47,272 nt of DNA from Candidatus Peribacteraceae bacterium. GTDB taxonomy: Bacteria > Patescibacteriota > Gracilibacteria > Peribacterales > Peribacteraceae. Location of the stretch: assembly GCA_028711445.1 (NCBI GenBank), contig JAQTSD010000008.1, positions 1 to 47,272 on the forward strand, in the 5' to 3' direction. Positions within the stretch are counted from its first letter, which is position 1, and the number at the start of each line of letters is the position of its first letter. Position numbers and translations under genes: made by a program. The notes below the pieces were generated by a model. The model worked only from the letters and a program-made list of their open reading frames with translations. It was not told the DNA's origin and searched no databases. Of the stretch, positions 448 through 6,297 are shown one piece after another.

Positions 448-3018
448 TTACTTATTTCCCTCCACGGCGATGGACTGACGCCTCGAGTAAGTCTCTTTCC
501 CTCGGGCGTCTATAACGGCGATACAGTAGTTGAGGGTCTGGCCGCTTAAGTCAACATCTGGGGGAAGAGTGGCTTCACTTGCGCTTCTGTAGGTCTCCAC
601 TTGCGCGAATGGTACCCCCGGTTTGTTTGCGAATATAACGAGGGTATCACCGAGTTTGTAATGCGCTCCTACGTCTGCAGGAAGTGAGAACGTGGCTGTG
701 CGATTTACAGCATCCACTTTCGTGATCCTGAACTCCTCGAGGATGCACTGCTCGATCGTCTTCGGTGCTTCGACTTTCTCCATTTTTTGTGGCTCCTCAG
801 TCTTCTTCTGTTCCTTCCTCTCCGTTTTCTTCGGTTCCTCCTCCTCCTCCTCCTTCGTTTCGTCTCTCTTCTCCTCTCGCGTCACAGGCACCTCTGTCTT
901 CCGAGTCATGCCGTCTTCTTTTCGCGGACTCTCCGGCTGCGCACCCGCACCCGACAAGAGCTTGAGACCCATTTGTGCCGCGATGGTTCCAACCGCCCCC
1001 GCTCCCGCCATGCGGGCGGAGTGTGCGAGGAACCTGCGGCGCTGAGTCCATGTGACCGCGGCTGCGATCCGCCTGTAGAGCGCCGCGATCTGCGCGCGCA
1101 TCGGGTTTGGGTTTTTGATGTCCGGATGCACGGATGGTTTCGTACCGAAGGCGACGCGTGCGACACTCTTCGCGACGGAGCGCATGATCTTGCCTGTCCT
1201 GGCCGTCTTCGTATCGTAGGTCCGGGCTTCCTCTCCCGGCCACACGAGACCGAGGAGTTTCTTCAGGCTCTTCGCGGCACCCGTGAGTGTGCGCTGATCC
1301 GCCAGAGAGAGGTTGTACTCCGCTCCATCGACATAGGTATTCATCGGATACAGGATGCTCGTAAGGAGGGGGCTGAGTCTCCACTCCACGTCGTCTGCGC
1401 TGATTTCATTCCCCTCAATCTCCGCTATGAGCTGATTGGCTTGCTCACCTGCTTCACGAACGTGCGCAGTCACGAGTTCCTCGGGGGTTTTGGATGGAGT
1501 TTCTTCAAGGGGAAGGAGGGGATTTGCATCCGGTTCGTTGCCGGGAGCGGGTGCATCGCTATCGGGGGACGATTCGTCTGACGGCTCTCGCGACCCGGTC
1601 GCTATCATGACCGGCGCCTCGGATAACAGTCCCCAGGCATCAGCGGCAGCCGGCATCTCGAATGTGCGGCTGATGATGGGCAGATTGCCATTGGCTGCGA
1701 GCTCGATGATGATTTCTCTATTCTCCGATTCGAGGCGGAGCGAATGTTCGAATGGTCGGCCTTGCTGATGCGCGGGTGTGACAAAACGGGAATCCGCTCT
1801 GTTTGCGGGATTGATCACAGTGATGGACCAGCGGTATCCCGCTGGCGGTTCGGCGGCTCTGATAACGAAATTCTCATCCTTCTCTTCGGCATGGATGCTC
1901 TGCTCATATCGCTCGATGTCTTCCTGCGAGAGGCCCGACTCGCTCGGAGCGGGGGAGGGCTGCTCTGCGTCGATCGATTCGGGTTCGAGTAATGAGATTC
2001 CGGAAACGGATGCATCCAGACCTATGCCGGAGTCCCCCGGCCCCTGGGACCACGGTCCTTCCCCTTCAAGCACCGAGTCATCATCACCTTCGAGTGTGAG
2101 GAGATCGCCGTCACCCAGATCAGGCGAAGAATCAAGTATTCCGGAGTCGATAAGTTCTTCTTCAGAGGACTGGTCATCGGCTGCCTCTTCCAGCGGCGTG
2201 AGCTCGAAGCCGGAATCCCCTCCCTCTTCTTCAAAGGATGGCGCGTCTGTCGGCCCTCCACTTTGCGCATCGGATACGGATGATGCCTTCGCGGGAGTCG
2301 CCTGTCCTGCAGGTTCGAGCGCGTCGATGGTGAGCTCGCGTTTGCCTTCCGACCGTTTACCGTTAGCGTCTTTGAGACGCAGGAAGACCGAGCACGGTTG
2401 TGACCTTCTTCTGATTGAGAGTGTCCTTTGAGCTGGATTGATGGGGGTGTAGAGCTTCCCCTCAGGTCCAGAGACATAGTAGATCCAGTGCATTCCTGCT
2501 GGCGGCGGTGGCAAGATGAACTCTTCATGTTCTGGATCAGGAGGAGGTGTCCGCAGGAATACAGCGGAACTGAGATCGGATGGGTCGTATTCGCGTTGGT
2601 CGGGAGCGGCTGCAAGCACCTCGCGTGCCTGATCTCTCACGGGTTCCAGCGGGAGAGGCTGCTGCTGTGCGCCTTTGGCGGGTCCAAGCTTAAGAGTCAG
2701 TTCCGTCGAGCGCCTTTCGGGTTCATTTGGCTTCTCCGTCACAATCTGAAACGATACATCGGAATTATCGTCTCCCCTCATGAGGTACGTGAGGTAGTCT
2801 TCGAGATAACCTTTGACGTCGATTTCTCCTCCCCGCATCTGTGTGGTGCAGCCGGCCGAGTTGCCGACGCAAAAGTACCACCTCGCGTACTGCTGTTCTT
2901 CCTTCGGGACCCACTTCAGCTGGAAGCGGCGATTCCCCAATGGCGTCACGTCTCCCTCATGAAGAGTGGAGGTGTCGGAGACGTACTCGGTGGAGGATCT
3001 CTCAGGAGCTTGAGACAT
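448..3018 (-). CDS. Large modular hypothetical protein with beta-domain repeats, acidic linkers and a basic helical region
   Basis: 856 aa, not recognised as a known family. Visible layout: a beta-rich domain at about 30-110 (WYFCVGNSAGC); similar-looking beta units near 165-235 and 395-465, both opening with PPAGxxW; Ser/Asp/Glu-rich probably disordered stretches (about 240-390 and 465-515); a helical basic region at 515-690 ending in a hydrophobic segment after the RRRFLAHSARMAG arginine cluster; a Lys/Glu-only stretch (about 695-760); and a final beta domain (770-856). There is no N-terminal signal peptide. The start at 3018 is the first ATG after a good promoter; it has no Shine-Dalgarno and follows a pyrimidine-rich leader. 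A scaffold or adhesin-like role is guesswork. The repeated PPAG-W units suggest internal duplication. Confidence 0.8.
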   Translation of the reverse strand: MSQAPERSSTEYVSDTSTLHEGDVTPLGNRRFQLKWVPKEEQQYARWYFCVGNSAGCTTQMRGGEIDVKGYLEDYLTYLMRGDDNSDVSFQIVTEKPNEPERRSTELTLKLGPAKGAQQQPLPLEPVRDQAREVLAAAPDQREYDPSDLSSAVFLRTPPPDPEHEEFILPPPPAGMHWIYYVSGPEGKLYTPINPAQRTLSIRRRSQPCSVFLRLKDANGKRSEGKRELTIDALEPAGQATPAKASSVSDAQSGGPTDAPSFEEEGGDSGFELTPLEEAADDQSSEEELIDSGILDSSPDLGDGDLLTLEGDDDSVLEGEGPWSQGPGDSGIGLDASVSGISLLEPESIDAEQPSPAPSESGLSQEDIERYEQSIHAEEKDENFVIRAAEPPAGYRWSITVINPANRADSRFVTPAHQQGRPFEHSLRLESENREIIIELAANGNLPIISRTFEMPAAADAWGLLSEAPVMIATGSREPSDESSPDSDAPAPGNEPDANPLLPLEETPSKTPEELVTAHVREAGEQANQLIAEIEGNEISADDVEWRLSPLLTSILYPMNTYVDGAEYNLSLADQRTLTGAAKSLKKLLGLVWPGEEARTYDTKTARTGKIMRSVAKSVARVAFGTKPSVHPDIKNPNPMRAQIAALYRRIAAAVTWTQRRRFLAHSARMAGAGAVGTIAAQMGLKLLSGAGAQPESPRKEDGMTRKTEVPVTREEKRDETKEEEEEEPKKTERKEQKKTEEPQKMEKVEAPKTIEQCILEEFRITKVDAVNRTATFSLPADVGAHYKLGDTLVIFANKPGVPFAQVETYRSASEATLPPDVDLSGQTLNYCIAVIDARGKETYSRRQSIAVEGNK

Positions 3019-3055
3019 GTGGATGGATGGGGAGAGAATAGCGAATTACTGTATA

Positions 3056-3083
3056 ATTATATTATAATTTAAAGATATGTCAA
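3056..3083 (-). promoter_or_regulatory. Sigma70-type promoter for the 856-aa gene
   Basis: On the minus strand TTGACA (3078-3083), a 16-bp spacer and TATAAT (3056-3061) match consensus perfectly. It stands in an AT-rich island between the gene start at 3018 and the terminator of the next gene upstream. Confidence 0.75.
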
Positions 3084-3094
3084 TAAGACAGAAA

Positions 3095-3172
3095 TTGCCA
3101 CATTTGGCAAAAGGGCCGTGCGAACACGGCCCCTTGAGCTGAACGACGTGCAGCCTGTACATGACAGGCTGC
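3095..3172 (-). terminator. Hairpins terminating the 69-aa membrane protein gene
   Basis: Downstream of the minus-strand stop come three hairpins: GCAGCCTGT/ACAGGCTGC (3150-3172), GGGCCGTG/CACGGCCC with a TTCG loop (3111-3135) followed by TTTT on the minus strand, and TTGCCA/TGGCAA (3095-3110). The middle one is a good intrinsic terminator. Confidence 0.75.
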
Positions 3173-3179
3173 GGTGCCT

Positions 3180-3389
3180 TCACACATAGCGGAGGTTCAT
3201 CACGACCCACATGAATGTGACCCCCACTGCTCCTCCGAAGAGGAGGGTGATGAGGATTGTTCCGAAACCACCGCCACCTCCTGCCGGTCGGGGCATGAAG
3301 ACGACGATGATGAACCACGCGAACAATCCTGCAACAACCAAAACCCACCAGAACGGCAACATCGCCGAAGCTGCATAGATCCTGTCCAT
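3180..3389 (-). CDS. Small two-helix membrane protein
   Basis: 69 aa with two clear membrane segments (about residues 11-31, LPFWWVLVVAGLFAWFIIVV, and 43-65) joined by a Pro-Arg-Pro and poly-Gly loop. A Shine-Dalgarno-like AGAGGAT lies upstream, a promoter stands at 3445-3474 and a terminator follows the stop, so this is a complete monocistronic unit and not chance coding. It is the first of four consecutive minus-strand genes for small membrane proteins (3180-5973), each with private promoter and terminator. Family not recognised. The short length and two helices would fit an accessory subunit or small pore-like protein, but nothing in the sequence fixes a function. Confidence 0.75.
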   Translation of the reverse strand: MDRIYAASAMLPFWWVLVVAGLFAWFIIVVFMPRPAGGGGGFGTILITLLFGGAVGVTFMWVVMNLRYV

Positions 3390-3444
3390 ACAACAATCCT
3401 CTTCTTCGTGGTGTAAAGAAACGCGGAATCGAACAGCGAGAAGG

Positions 3445-3474
3445 ATTATAGCACAGTATGATAATAAAAATCAA
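3445..3474 (-). promoter_or_regulatory. Promoter for the 69-aa membrane protein
   Basis: Minus strand TTGATT (3469-3474), 18 bp, TATAAT (3445-3450). A further TTGACA at 3486-3491 is too far from this -10 box to pair with it. Confidence 0.65.
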
Positions 3475-3519
3475 TTATTAAAGTATGTCAAATCTTCTCA
3501 CAATCATTGGCATACGAAA

Positions 3520-3550
3520 GAGGGGCCACAGCCGTTGGCTGCAGCCCCTC
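3520..3550 (-). terminator. Terminator of the 231-aa gene
   Basis: GAGGGGC...GCCCCTC long stem with an internal GCAGCC/GGCTGT helix, followed on the minus strand by CTTTCG. It lies 25 nt after the stop codon of the gene at 3575-4270. Confidence 0.75.
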
Positions 3551-3574
3551 AAGTTTGGGGTGGTTGATCGGACG

Positions 3575-4270
3575 TTACTTCTTACCTGACGAAGCGTTTG
3601 GTGCAGTGACTTCAAATTCAACGTAGCTTCCGGCTTTGCCGTCAGCGACCTTGAAGAAGCGCACCTTGCCCGCTTGATCCATGGACAGCGTCTTCCCCTC
3701 GAGAGGTTTCGACTGACCAGGGAGGATCTTGTAAGCCCAGTAGCCCCCTTGGGGGGCATCCGTGAGAATGGTGAAGGTGTTTCCTTCGCGCTTCACCTCT
3801 TCCCACTGAGCATCGAGTGACACGGCTGGCGGTGTTGCCACAGCCGTTTTCTCTTCGGCCTTCGGCTCGGAAGCCTCTTGCATCGGCAGTACCGCTTGTA
3901 CCTTCTTCTCAACCTTTTCCTTGAAGGTCTTCGGCTTCGAAGCTTCCTGCCTCGTCGACTCCGCAACCGGAGCAGTTTCCGCCTTCGTGGCGGCTTCTGC
4001 GTGCTGCTCCTTCGGCTTCGCATCTTCTTTCTGGACTTCCGCGTTGCCTCCGAAGATGCGTGGCATCACGTCCTTCCATGCGGGCACGATCAGCCCGCCG
4101 AAGAGTCCGCAGGCGATCATGAGGGACAAGAGGCGCTTCGGCCCCTCGCATCGCATTTTCACTGCGAACACGCTCGCCACCACGGTGGCGATTGCGACCC
4201 AGAACCACTCTTTCGAGAGGCCCCAGCAGACCCAATCCAAGACGACGTTCACATAATCTCCAGTGCTCAT
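3575..4270 (-). CDS. Membrane-anchored protein with Ala/Lys/Glu-rich stalk and C-terminal beta domain
   Basis: 231 aa. Two hydrophobic segments (about 20-40 and 46-66) are followed by a charged low-complexity stalk (about 75-150, rich in Ala, Lys, Glu and Pro) and a compact C-terminal beta-rich domain (about 150-225, ending YVEFEVTAPNASSGKK). This looks like a membrane-anchored protein displaying a small soluble domain. The ATG at 4270 has a GGAGA Shine-Dalgarno sequence nearby. It lies between the 69-aa gene and the two PH-like membrane paralogues, all on the minus strand with separate promoters, so the cluster may serve one envelope function, but that is inference. Family not recognised. 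Confidence 0.8.
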   Translation of the reverse strand: MSTGDYVNVVLDWVCWGLSKEWFWVAIATVVASVFAVKMRCEGPKRLLSLMIACGLFGGLIVPAWKDVMPRIFGGNAEVQKEDAKPKEQHAEAATKAETAPVAESTRQEASKPKTFKEKVEKKVQAVLPMQEASEPKAEEKTAVATPPAVSLDAQWEEVKREGNTFTILTDAPQGGYWAYKILPGQSKPLEGKTLSMDQAGKVRFFKVADGKAGSYVEFEVTAPNASSGKK

Positions 4271-4329
4271 AAAATTCTCCCATGGTTTGAGGGTTTCGTT
4301 GCTTTCAATGACCGATCAACCAATAAATA

Positions 4330-4357
4330 ATTTTACATAAATTTATCAATATGTCAA
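4330..4357 (-). promoter_or_regulatory. Promoter for the 231-aa gene
   Basis: Minus strand TTGACA (4352-4357), 16 bp, TAAAAT (4330-4335), in an AT-rich patch about 60 nt upstream of the start. Confidence 0.7.
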
Positions 4358-4370
4358 TATACGAAAAGCT

Positions 4371-4396
4371 CCGGTGGGAAAGCGATTTCCCACCGG
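4371..4396 (-). terminator. Terminator of PH-like membrane paralogue 1
   Basis: Perfect CCGGTGGGAA/TTCCCACCGG stem with a 6-nt loop, followed by AGCTTTTCG on the minus strand, downstream of the stop at 4435. Confidence 0.8.
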
Positions 4397-4434
4397 TTCG
4401 GCTGTTTCCAAAGTCGGCTTTTGAGTGCCATAGC

Positions 4435-5112
4435 CTACTTAGGGTTCTCCTCAATCTCCACCTCGAGAAGTCCCTGCTCTTCGATCGTTTGTTCGAGACC
4501 TGCGAGCAATGGGACATTCGGGAGCACGATTTCGCTGTTGCTTGCCCTGTCGCGAATGGTGATCTGCCCCGCGCCGAAACCGAGCAACCATTCGAGGGTA
4601 TCCGGCCAGTCCACGGAGAAGCACCTGTTATCCGCAAGGTACTTGGTGGCGCTTTCGCCGAAGACCTTGACGATCACTGCGCCTCCCGCGCCGATGTGTA
4701 CCCGCTGGAAGAGGTGCACCCATATGTACATGAGGATGTACACGACGGAGAGCGTGATGCTGATGAGCAGTGTCCCGCCTCGATCGAATCTTGGGGTGCA
4801 AGCGTGCAGGAATTCGAGAGATCTGCTGGCAACTGCATAGCCCTTGATGCCGAATGCGACGGCGGTCACCACTCCGAGAGCAATTGCCAGGACGACCACT
4901 CCGGCCACTCGAAGTCTCAAATCGATTCCCAGCGTGGTCACGACGGCAACCACCGTGATGGTGTAGACCCACCCGAGAAACACATCAGCGTTCGGACCCG
5001 CGCTCTGCGAGACCGCATAACAGAGATACCCGGCCACGATGAGCGGCCAGGTATAGAGAAACTTCGGGTAGTAGAAGAAATCCACCCCCTTCTTCTCCGT
5101 GATGTTCGGCAT
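4435..5112 (-). CDS. Membrane protein with C-terminal bacterial PH-like domain, paralogue 1
   Basis: 225 aa. About four membrane helices lie in the first 140 residues (WPLIVAGYLCYAV; VYTITVVAVVTTLGI; VVVLAIALGVVTAV; LLISITLSVVYILMYIWV). A soluble C-terminal domain (about 142-220) has the pattern ADNRCFSVDWPDTLEWLLGFGAGQI. That pattern resembles the bacterial PH domain family bPH_2/DUF304; the assignment is from memory of the family pattern. It is a clear paralogue of the gene at 5302-5973: FxYYPKxLYxWPLIVAG, TLGIDLRxR and YGES/FGES-like motifs are shared. The ATG at 5112 follows AAAGGAG. The mRNA begins with a leader identical over 37 nt to that of the paralogue. It is transcribed alone, from its own promoter. 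Confidence 0.85.
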   Translation of the reverse strand: MPNITEKKGVDFFYYPKFLYTWPLIVAGYLCYAVSQSAGPNADVFLGWVYTITVVAVVTTLGIDLRLRVAGVVVLAIALGVVTAVAFGIKGYAVASRSLEFLHACTPRFDRGGTLLISITLSVVYILMYIWVHLFQRVHIGAGGAVIVKVFGESATKYLADNRCFSVDWPDTLEWLLGFGAGQITIRDRASNSEIVLPNVPLLAGLEQTIEEQGLLEVEIEENPK

Positions 5113-5135
5113 GACATTCTCCTTTCAGAGTATTT

Positions 5136-5187
5136 GCCGACTGTGGTGTAAACGACCGACCCCCGGTTGCCGTCCGACGAGGACAGC
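5136..5187 (-). promoter_or_regulatory. Conserved 5' leader element, copy 1
   Basis: Bases 5151-5187 are identical to 6019-6055 (37 of 37) and the similarity continues more weakly to about 5136. On the minus strand the leader begins a few bases after the predicted transcription start and includes GTCCTCGTCGGAC, which can form a small hairpin, then GGGGGTCGGTCGTT. It ends about 24 nt before the start codon. Candidate structured regulatory RNA or target of a shared regulator; no known riboswitch class was recognised. Confidence 0.65.
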
Positions 5188-5199
5188 AATGGGCTGATT

Positions 5200-5228
5200 A
5201 TTATCAAATTTTGTGTCAGTTAAGTCAA
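5200..5228 (-). promoter_or_regulatory. Promoter for PH-like paralogue 1
   Basis: Minus strand TTGACT (5223-5228), 17 bp, GATAAT (5200-5205). The expected start site is near 5192, just ahead of the conserved leader block. Confidence 0.75.
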
Positions 5229-5245
5229 TATCTGGGAATATCAGT

Positions 5246-5278
5246 AAACCGGAGGGATTGCCAATATCCCTCCGGTTT
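5246..5278 (-). terminator. Terminator of PH-like membrane paralogue 2
   Basis: AAACCGGAGGGA/TCCCTCCGGTTT, a perfect 12-bp stem with a 9-nt loop, 24 nt after the stop of the gene at 5302. Confidence 0.85.
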
Positions 5279-5301
5279 CGATCTCATGCGTCGGTACCGC
5301 G

Positions 5302-5973
5302 TTAGTTCTTTTCCGATGTGATCACTTTCATGATGAGAAGGTGTTGGATCCGTTTCTTTAGTGACGAGAGGAACGGGATGTTCTGTAGTGTCACTGACCG
5401 ACCTGATTTCGTATCGGTGATGGTAACGGTACCGGCATCCGGTCCCAGCAGACGTTTCAGTACGTCGGGGAAGTCCACGTTGATCACACGGCTGTCCGCG
5501 AGGAACGTGATATCCGATTCACCGTAGATTGAGACAGTCACGATTCCTTCACTAATTTTCACCTTTCTGAAGAAGTGTACCCATACGTACATGAGCACAT
5601 ATAGGATGGCTAGGATGATACTCGTGAAGAACGCTCCTCCCGCGTCGAAGTACGGTTTGCAGAGCTTGAGGACACTGAATGGTCCGGTGTAGATATCCAC
5701 ACCTGCGAGATTCAACGTCACCAAGCTGACGATGAGGAGCATTGCCACTACCAGGCAAACCAACATGTGCCGAAACCGCAGGTCGATGCCCAAGGTAACG
5801 ACGACGATGATCAGGATGCTTTGGTAGAGCCATCCGAGCGGCGTATCGGCCTTGGGGCCGAGCGCGAAGTACAGTACCCAGAACAAGACGCCGGCCACGA
5901 TGAGTGGCCACATGTAGAGCATTTTCGGGTAATGGTAGAATGTGATGCTCTGCGGGAAATCGGATTTTGGCAT
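5302..5973 (-). CDS. Membrane protein with C-terminal bacterial PH-like domain, paralogue 2
   Basis: 223 aa from the ATG at 5973, chosen because it follows a perfect AAAGGAGG and aligns with the start of paralogue 1 (MPKSDF against MPNITE). The frame is open further upstream, but that stretch is the leader and repeat DNA. Layout as in paralogue 1: four membrane helices, then a C-terminal domain with the pattern ADSRVINVDFPDVLKRLLGPDAG, typical of bPH_2-like folds. Protein identity between the two is only moderate, while the leader DNA is identical over 37 nt. That is unexpected for a simple old duplication and points to selection on the leader or to gene conversion there. Function unknown; an envelope or membrane-stress role is speculation. 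Confidence 0.85.
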   Translation of the reverse strand: MPKSDFPQSITFYHYPKMLYMWPLIVAGVLFWVLYFALGPKADTPLGWLYQSILIIVVVTLGIDLRFRHMLVCLVVAMLLIVSLVTLNLAGVDIYTGPFSVLKLCKPYFDAGGAFFTSIILAILYVLMYVWVHFFRKVKISEGIVTVSIYGESDITFLADSRVINVDFPDVLKRLLGPDAGTVTITDTKSGRSVTLQNIPFLSSLKKRIQHLLIMKVITSEKN

Positions 5974-6002
5974 GGTATGCCTCCTTTGAGTGAAAACGTG
6001 TG

Positions 6003-6055
6003 TACCGACGATGGTTTTAACGACCGACCCCCGGTTGCCGTCCGACGAGGACAGC
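6003..6055 (-). promoter_or_regulatory. Conserved 5' leader element, copy 2
   Basis: Second copy of the 37-nt identical block (6019-6055), with weaker similarity to about 6003. Here a CACGCCTC/GAGGCGTG hairpin (6060-6081) lies between the promoter and the block, which copy 1 lacks. Confidence 0.65.
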
Positions 6056-6095: not shown

Positions 6096-6123
6096 AGTTT
6101 ACATTGTTTAGGTGAATTGGCAA
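6096..6123 (-). promoter_or_regulatory. Probable promoter for PH-like paralogue 2
   Basis: Minus strand TTGCCA (6118-6123), 16 bp, TAAACT (6096-6101). A weaker match than the promoters of the neighbouring genes. Confidence 0.5.
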
Positions 6124-6297
6124 GGCTGGAGTTATGGCGGGAAGGCGCGGTGGAGAAGTCCGCACTCGTGGTTCGAGACGCCCCGCATGCGCGGGGCTCC
6201 TCACCATGACGAGCGCGGCCTCCGTGGCACGTTTTGATTGTTCCTACGATGGGTCGCCCCTTGCCTCTTCTTTCTGTACACTGCCGCCAACGTGGCA
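6124..6297. other. Intergenic region upstream of carA
   Basis: With 5974-6123 this makes a 324-bp gap between genes. It contains a GCCCCGC/GCGGGGC hairpin (6180-6197) immediately followed by GCTCCTCACCATGAC (6195-6209), a 15-mer identical to part of the palindromic elements at 327-424 and 20634-20730, so a decayed fragment of that repeat is likely. No convincing -35/-10 pair for carA was found and no gene is seen. Confidence 0.55.

Follow-up and report, generated by a model that had tools for sequence, protein, structure and literature searches.

Complementary ends of a protein-coding RNA are familiar from viruses, in which cyclisation sequences or panhandles serve replication and packaging. 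In bacteria, pairing in cis between the 5' and 3' parts of a messenger RNA (mRNA) has so far been met with in isolated, poorly conserved cases. The hbs mRNA of Bacillus subtilis is protected against RNase Y by a 14-nucleotide (nt) pairing between its 5' and 3' untranslated regions (UTRs), according to Braun et al. 2017 as summarised in PMC7821165. In the icaR mRNA of Staphylococcus aureus, a UCCCC motif of the 3' UTR masks the ribosome site and makes a substrate for RNase III (PMC3868564, PMC7821165). RNAIII of S. aureus, the delta-haemolysin mRNA, contains a validated long-range 5'-3' pairing (PMC7821165). The subject here is a 37-nt block that stands in the leaders of two paralogous genes, A and B, in a 47,272-nt stretch of DNA from a Candidatus (Ca.) Peribacteraceae bacterium (contig JAQTSD010000008.1, positions 1 to 47,272; the window hereafter). 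The block appears to be one part, the 5' one, of an RNA element through which an mRNA pairs with its own tail.

As in hbs and icaR, complementarity between the 5' UTR and the 3' UTR of a single mRNA was found at this locus. A shared core, a 5' hairpin, and arms that compensate each other across genera distinguish it from hbs, for which the relevant passages of PMC7821165 report none of these. It differs from icaR in that the main pairing leaves the Shine-Dalgarno sequence (SD) free and the 3' arm lies directly past the stop codon; no 3'-UTR anti-SD UCCCC masking the ribosome site was found, although the predicted helix of one homologue from another genus (genome G018) does reach the SD. RNAIII shares the long-range 5'-3' pairing but is a dual-function regulatory RNA and a single case, and viral panhandles share the complementary ends of a coding RNA but differ in function and show no homology. 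No earlier account of a recurrent head-to-tail design in Ca. Peribacteria was found in the open-licence literature. The design appears to be conserved: a shared core and arms that evolve together recur on many unrelated genes within a single candidate-phylum lineage. If this is true, head-to-tail mRNA closure would be a standing regulatory principle in bacteria and no mere curiosity.

An identical leader block before two diverged genes

The 37-nt block, AACGACCGACCCCCGGTTGCCGTCCGACGAGGACAGC, is exactly alike at 5151-5187 and 6019-6055. Both copies are on the minus strand, in the leaders of gene B and gene A, respectively, and their edges are sharp, as the similarity of the copies drops immediately beyond the 37 nt. 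Sequence shuffles gave 0 expected block matches, which places the identity far above chance. The genes behind the block have diverged: the proteins are 41% identical, all codon positions 51%, and four-fold degenerate sites 32%, and the longest exact match between the coding sequences is 14 nt. The preliminary description of this DNA, which had reported an exact identity on diverged paralogues, was thus correct. The GTCC/GGAC hairpin that it placed in the block is also present but longer than claimed, with 7 bp (GCUGUCC-UCGUC-GGACGGC).

The 1.25-Mb genome contains two block copies at up to 3 mismatches, and at exact match or 3 mismatches the block was found in this genome only. A variable-gap search of 74 family genomes recovered it in a sister species too, and in no other family genome; no viral contig matched in the variable-gap search. 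The sister, a Ca. Peribacteria metagenome-assembled genome (contig DMXL01000005), is the sole other genome found for the genus. Its block carries a 2-nt insertion and one substitution and precedes the single orthologue of gene A, whose four-fold sites are 47% identical to those of gene A. That the block is kept at such divergence means that selection acts on it, and there is no need to invoke local gene conversion. The search upstream of homologues that the preliminary description had proposed was answered in the sister species, and its view of the block as a constrained functional RNA was borne out. Protein B as a query against a collection of genome contigs gave no related loci, no leader was recognised at a homologue in genome G006 (22% identity, locus L009), and Rfam returned no family at the gathering threshold for the window locus and 13 related loci.

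Complementarity between leader and tail

What does the block pair with? Its first half forms the 7-bp hairpin, and its second half, together with the bases just beyond it, is complementary to the short 3' UTR of its own gene. The parts of gene A, gene B, and their neighbour gene C, all on the minus strand (-), are as follows.

6096-6123 (-), predicted promoter of gene A, sigma-70-like, TTGCCA-16-TAAACT, 9/12 matches; the same hexamer layout was read in the sister species sequence
6019-6055 (-), 37-nt block, copy A; 5' hairpin at 6037-6055, outer 5' arm UCGGUCGU at 6020-6027
6012-6025 (-), core-like GGTCGTTAAAACCA of copy A, 11/14 against GRTCWTTSAMAGCA
6002-6010 (-), inner 5' arm CGUCGGUAC of the gene A mRNA
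5302-5973 (-), gene A coding sequence, 223 aa, open reading frame (ORF)
5289-5297 (-), 3' arm GUACCGACG of gene A, 4 nt past the stop codon
5278-5285 (-), outer 3' partner GAGAUCGA of gene A, opposite the block tail UCGGUCGU, 6 contiguous pairs
5247-5277 (-), terminator-like hairpin of gene A (AACCGGAGGGAT...ATCCCTCCGGTT), read from the sequence and not listed by the terminator scan
5200-5228 (-), predicted promoter of gene B, sigma-70-like, TTGACT-17-GATAAT, 10/12 matches
5151-5187 (-), 37-nt block, copy B; 5' hairpin at 5169-5187, outer 5' arm UCGGUCGU at 5152-5159
5144-5157 (-), core-like GGTCGTTTACACCA of copy B, 11/14
5136-5142 (-), inner 5' arm AGUCGGC of the gene B mRNA, two pairs altered on both sides relative to gene A
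4435-5112 (-), gene B coding sequence, 225 aa, ORF, the paralogue
4412-4418 (-), 3' arm GCCGACU of gene B
4398-4405 (-), outer 3' partner ACAGCCGA of gene B, opposite the block tail UCGGUCGU, 7/8 pairs
4371-4396 (-), terminator-like hairpin of gene B, from the scan
4330-4357 (-), predicted promoter of gene C, TTGACA-16-TAAAAT
4312-4321 (-), 5' arm GGUUGAUCGG of gene C
4300-4313 (-), core GGTCATTGAAAGCA in the gene C leader, 14/14
3575-4270 (-), gene C coding sequence, 231 aa, N-terminal hydrophobic segments and a linker
3562-3571 (-), 3' arm CCGAUCAACC of gene C, directly past the stop codon
3520-3550 (-), terminator of gene C, from the scan

The layout is common to neighbouring genes, to homologues in other genera, and to unrelated genes: a hairpin, a core resembling GRUCWUUSAMAGCA, an arm, the SD, the ORF, the stop codon, the complementary arm, and a terminator. 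The inner helices are CGUCGGUAC / GUACCGACG in gene A, AGUCGGC / GCCGACU in gene B, and GUCGGUACA / UGUACCGAC in the sister orthologue of A, and in the outer helix the block tail UCGGUCGU lies opposite GAGAUCGA, ACAGCCGA, or ACGACCGA. Gene C (GGUUGAUCGG / CCGAUCAACC) and, in the sister cluster, the SPFH (Band_7) gene (GCAUCGAACGGAA / UUCCGUUCGAUGC) have arms of their own. Arm sequences therefore vary from gene to gene with complementarity kept, and the inner helices of A and B differ by two compensatory changes (C-G to A-U and U-A to C-G). Across the A, B, and sister A arms 90% of the cells are paired, compared with 11-55% when the arms are slid against each other. The covariation that the preliminary description had asked for is thus present, both here and in three SPFH homologues described below; each count of compensatory pairs rests on three sequences, with the arms placed by hand and joined by a spacer.

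Duplexes between cognate UTRs were stronger than in dinucleotide shuffles, with p<=0.002 for C and for g2, g3, and the SPFH gene g4 of the sister cluster, and p 0.013-0.016 for B, sister A, and g5. Whole-mRNA partition functions gave paired ends in 12 of 12 mRNAs (657-1567 nt), with a best pair probability of 0.95-1.0. In fixed windows, the nine tested genes had a median of 17 expected UTR-UTR pairs, compared with 2.7 in 30 controls. Genes of the genus do not show the pairing in general: the mean p over 155 surveyed genes was 0.52. The cluster genes SPFH, g2, and C ranked within the top five of that survey. The genome was covered by sampled stretches.

The arms keep a regular distance from the coding sequence. 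In 12 measured genes, 23-82 nt separate the end of the 5' arm from the AUG, and the 3' arm starts at -3 to +19 nt, counted from the first stop-codon base. Because of these distances, the SD normally lies outside the helix, and a terminating ribosome would come into contact with the 3' arm.

Homologues in other genera

Tests independent of the cluster come from the core-defined loci and from the G018 homologue of A. This homologue, from another genus and 23-26% identical, has the same layout with wholly different complementary arms (CGCAGCAG..GUUGUU / AACAAC..CUGCUGCG, -42.6 kcal/mol) and a 12/14 core at its arm; its predicted fold extends the helix into the SD. In SPFH homologues from three genera each of the 11 pairs is intact, without a broken cell, and three of the pairs are changed on both sides, giving four compensatory cells. 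Compensatory base changes, the mark of a conserved structured RNA, were thus found in homologues, in small samples with hand-chosen arms. When ORFs in the stretches around homologues were scanned, the SPFH and A genes stood out and false positives were few. The leader of the SPFH homologue L035 was recovered by the core search, as L116.

A common core on unrelated genes

The core pattern GRTCWTTSAMAGCA was derived by comparing leaders, and most members read GRUCWUUSAMAGCA. It occurs 63 times in the 74 family genomes, compared with about 10 for the reversed pattern. Eight of the sites belong to a second core-containing repeat, gtgaatGATCATTCACAGCATCGTGTAGTAGAGAA, and were left out of the tests. 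At 43 remaining sites found by the 5' core alone, with the ORF chosen automatically, the cognate helix scores summed to 781.5, a value that none of 20,000 permutations reached (maximum 733). A hairpin is usual just 5' of the core (mean z -1.73; 17/26 below -1). The diverged cores of genes A and B, GGUCGUUAAAACCA and GGUCGUUUACACCA, match at 11/14; the chance of such a match in a 40-nt leader is about 0.009. Other families of the class showed only a weak excess of the core, with a panhandle in 0 of 18 loci checked, and core sites outside the family look mostly like chance.

Perfect or near-perfect arms of 9-14 bp stand on unrelated genes. They were found on an SPFH gene (L116, GCACCGAACAA / UUGUUCGGUGC), at L110 and L111 (CACGAUUGACGA / UCGUCAAUCGUG), and on genes of the N_methyl-DUF1559 (L098, UUGGUUUCAGAAUG / CGUUCUGAAACCAA), xylose-isomerase-like (L069, CAGCAUGGU / ACCAUGCUG), and GFO/IDH/MocA (L101, UGCGAUUGA / UCAAUCGCA) types. 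Two further genes in the window's own genome, at L156 and L158, have 11-bp arms CUCUUUGACAG / CUGUCGAAGAG together with differing inner arms.

A proposed closed mRNA and its alternatives

That the leader is an RNA element pairing with the tail of its own mRNA is well supported by these sequence comparisons. We infer the pairing in vivo, the transcript ends, and an effect on stability or translation. The mechanism that we favour, with a probability of roughly 0.66, is that the block forms the 5' part of a two-ended RNA element through which the mRNA folds back on itself as a panhandle, with its ends protected and the SD left open. Just after the transcription start, the RNA would present a small hairpin, the core, and then the gene-specific arm. 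This 5' arm would pair with its complement between the stop codon and the terminator, giving a panhandle with one hairpin at each end. With no ribosomes at the stop-codon end, the closed form may shield both ends from nucleases and hold head and tail together; end protection by closure would resemble that of hbs. The SD and start codon, 23-82 nt past the 5' arm, would remain accessible in the closed form. A ribosome terminating beside the 3' arm would open the panhandle and thereby couple stability to translation. If a common protein binds, the likely place is the shared hairpin and core. The arms should be exchangeable in pairs, and the panhandle idea is therefore directly testable in a laboratory host. 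A wider version is tentative and, in our judgement, less likely than not: a split, lineage-specific structured RNA acting across a regulon, in which a shared protein or ligand would read the hairpin and core only in the closed panhandle and would adjust mRNA stability or translation for membrane, SPFH, pilin-like, and sugar-metabolism-like genes, depending on whether the tails of their own mRNAs are clear of ribosomes.

Several observations weigh against the panhandle. The gene A duplex itself is weak against dinucleotide shuffles (p 0.061), the duplex test showed no convincing arms on the cluster genes D and E, and a few control genes also have high UTR-UTR pairing. The complementarity in the cluster was first spotted by eye, which makes its p-values post hoc. 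Taken one by one, only 9 of the 43 core sites that were processed automatically have p<0.05, and some of the 43 are chance sites or carry mis-chosen ORFs. Finally, the transcript ends are predicted, in uncultured organisms.

Could the pairing silence translation instead? In an off-switch of the icaR kind, it would yield an RNase III substrate or block the ribosome site. Helices of up to 13-14 bp are possible RNase III substrates, and the predicted helix enters the SD in the G018 homologue. However, the main arm ends well before the AUG in all 12 genes and no anti-SD motif was seen, and we consider such a switch unlikely because the SD lies outside the main helix.

We give a rather low chance to the view that A and B share a trans regulator acting on the leader, either as a DNA operator or as an RNA target confined to the 5' end, with incidental 3' complementarity. 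The hairpin, core, and block are conserved in sequence beyond what structure would require, and a palindrome, GATCGATC, also occurs within the 3' arms of several cluster genes. However, the arms vary by gene and co-vary with the 3' UTR, and cognate pairs exceeded all permutations. The regulator target coordinating both genes, as the preliminary description had it, found no support in that form: the partner found is the 3' UTR of the same mRNA, and the arms are gene-specific. It is possible that a trans factor acts on the shared hairpin or core and coordinates the genes; a factor binding there is compatible with the panhandle.

It is improbable that the arms work at the DNA level, as terminal inverted repeats bounding small mobile gene cassettes. 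The two species do not have the same genes between carA and gene E, and single genes are each flanked by inverted repeats. However, the repeats lie inside the predicted transcription unit at a fixed distance to the start and stop codons, with terminators behind them; different cassettes have no repeat sequence in common, and no recombinase was noticed among the ORFs from carA to gene E.

A functionless origin of the identical leaders, by recent gene conversion or by duplication of a short segment, would suit two adjacent, exactly identical copies with sharp edges but is scarcely credible, because A and B have diverged on both the coding and the promoter side and because the block was found before the single sister orthologue despite 47% four-fold identity. 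The preliminary description had set homologues lacking the block, together with evidence of such conversion, against function.

Neighbouring genes and other repeats

Protein A matched no Pfam family above the cut-off. Its AlphaFold model has helices followed by a C-terminal alpha/beta region at low confidence (predicted local distance difference test, pLDDT, 52) and its quality is too low for a search by fold. In their C-terminal part, proteins A and B (window 5302-5973) resemble bacterial PH-like (DUF304) domains; there was no such Pfam hit and the model is poor.

From carA to the large gene E (window 448-6000; L010:10600-18800), the order is A, B, C, D, E in the window and A, g2, g3, SPFH, g5, D, E in the sister, which suggests a fast turnover of single-gene units in this interval. 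A conserved 69-aa membrane ORF (MDRIYAASAMLPFWWVLVVAG...) lies at window 3180-3389 on the minus strand; its coding region and leader are near-identical in the sister, while other cluster genes diverge or are replaced. The gap between carA and gene A (window 6100-6230) contains a palindromic repeat, GGTTCGAGACGCCCCGCATGCGCGGGGCTCCTCACCATGAC, that is absent at the same site in the sister. This repeat has the look of a repetitive extragenic palindromic element, and pieces resembling it occur after gene E.

Two other elements were noticed. A second Peribacteria repeat, a hairpin ending ..GTGAATGATC-nnn-GATCATTCAC and followed by AGCATCGTGTAGTAGAGAA, is present at L066, L067, L072, L073, L077, L083, L088, and L109. 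Hairpins of the form GUUUGC...GCAGACGUAAAA precede the core at L064, L068, and L070 and are common to leaders of genes that resemble hisI/hisG by eye; these perhaps represent a separate regulatory leader.
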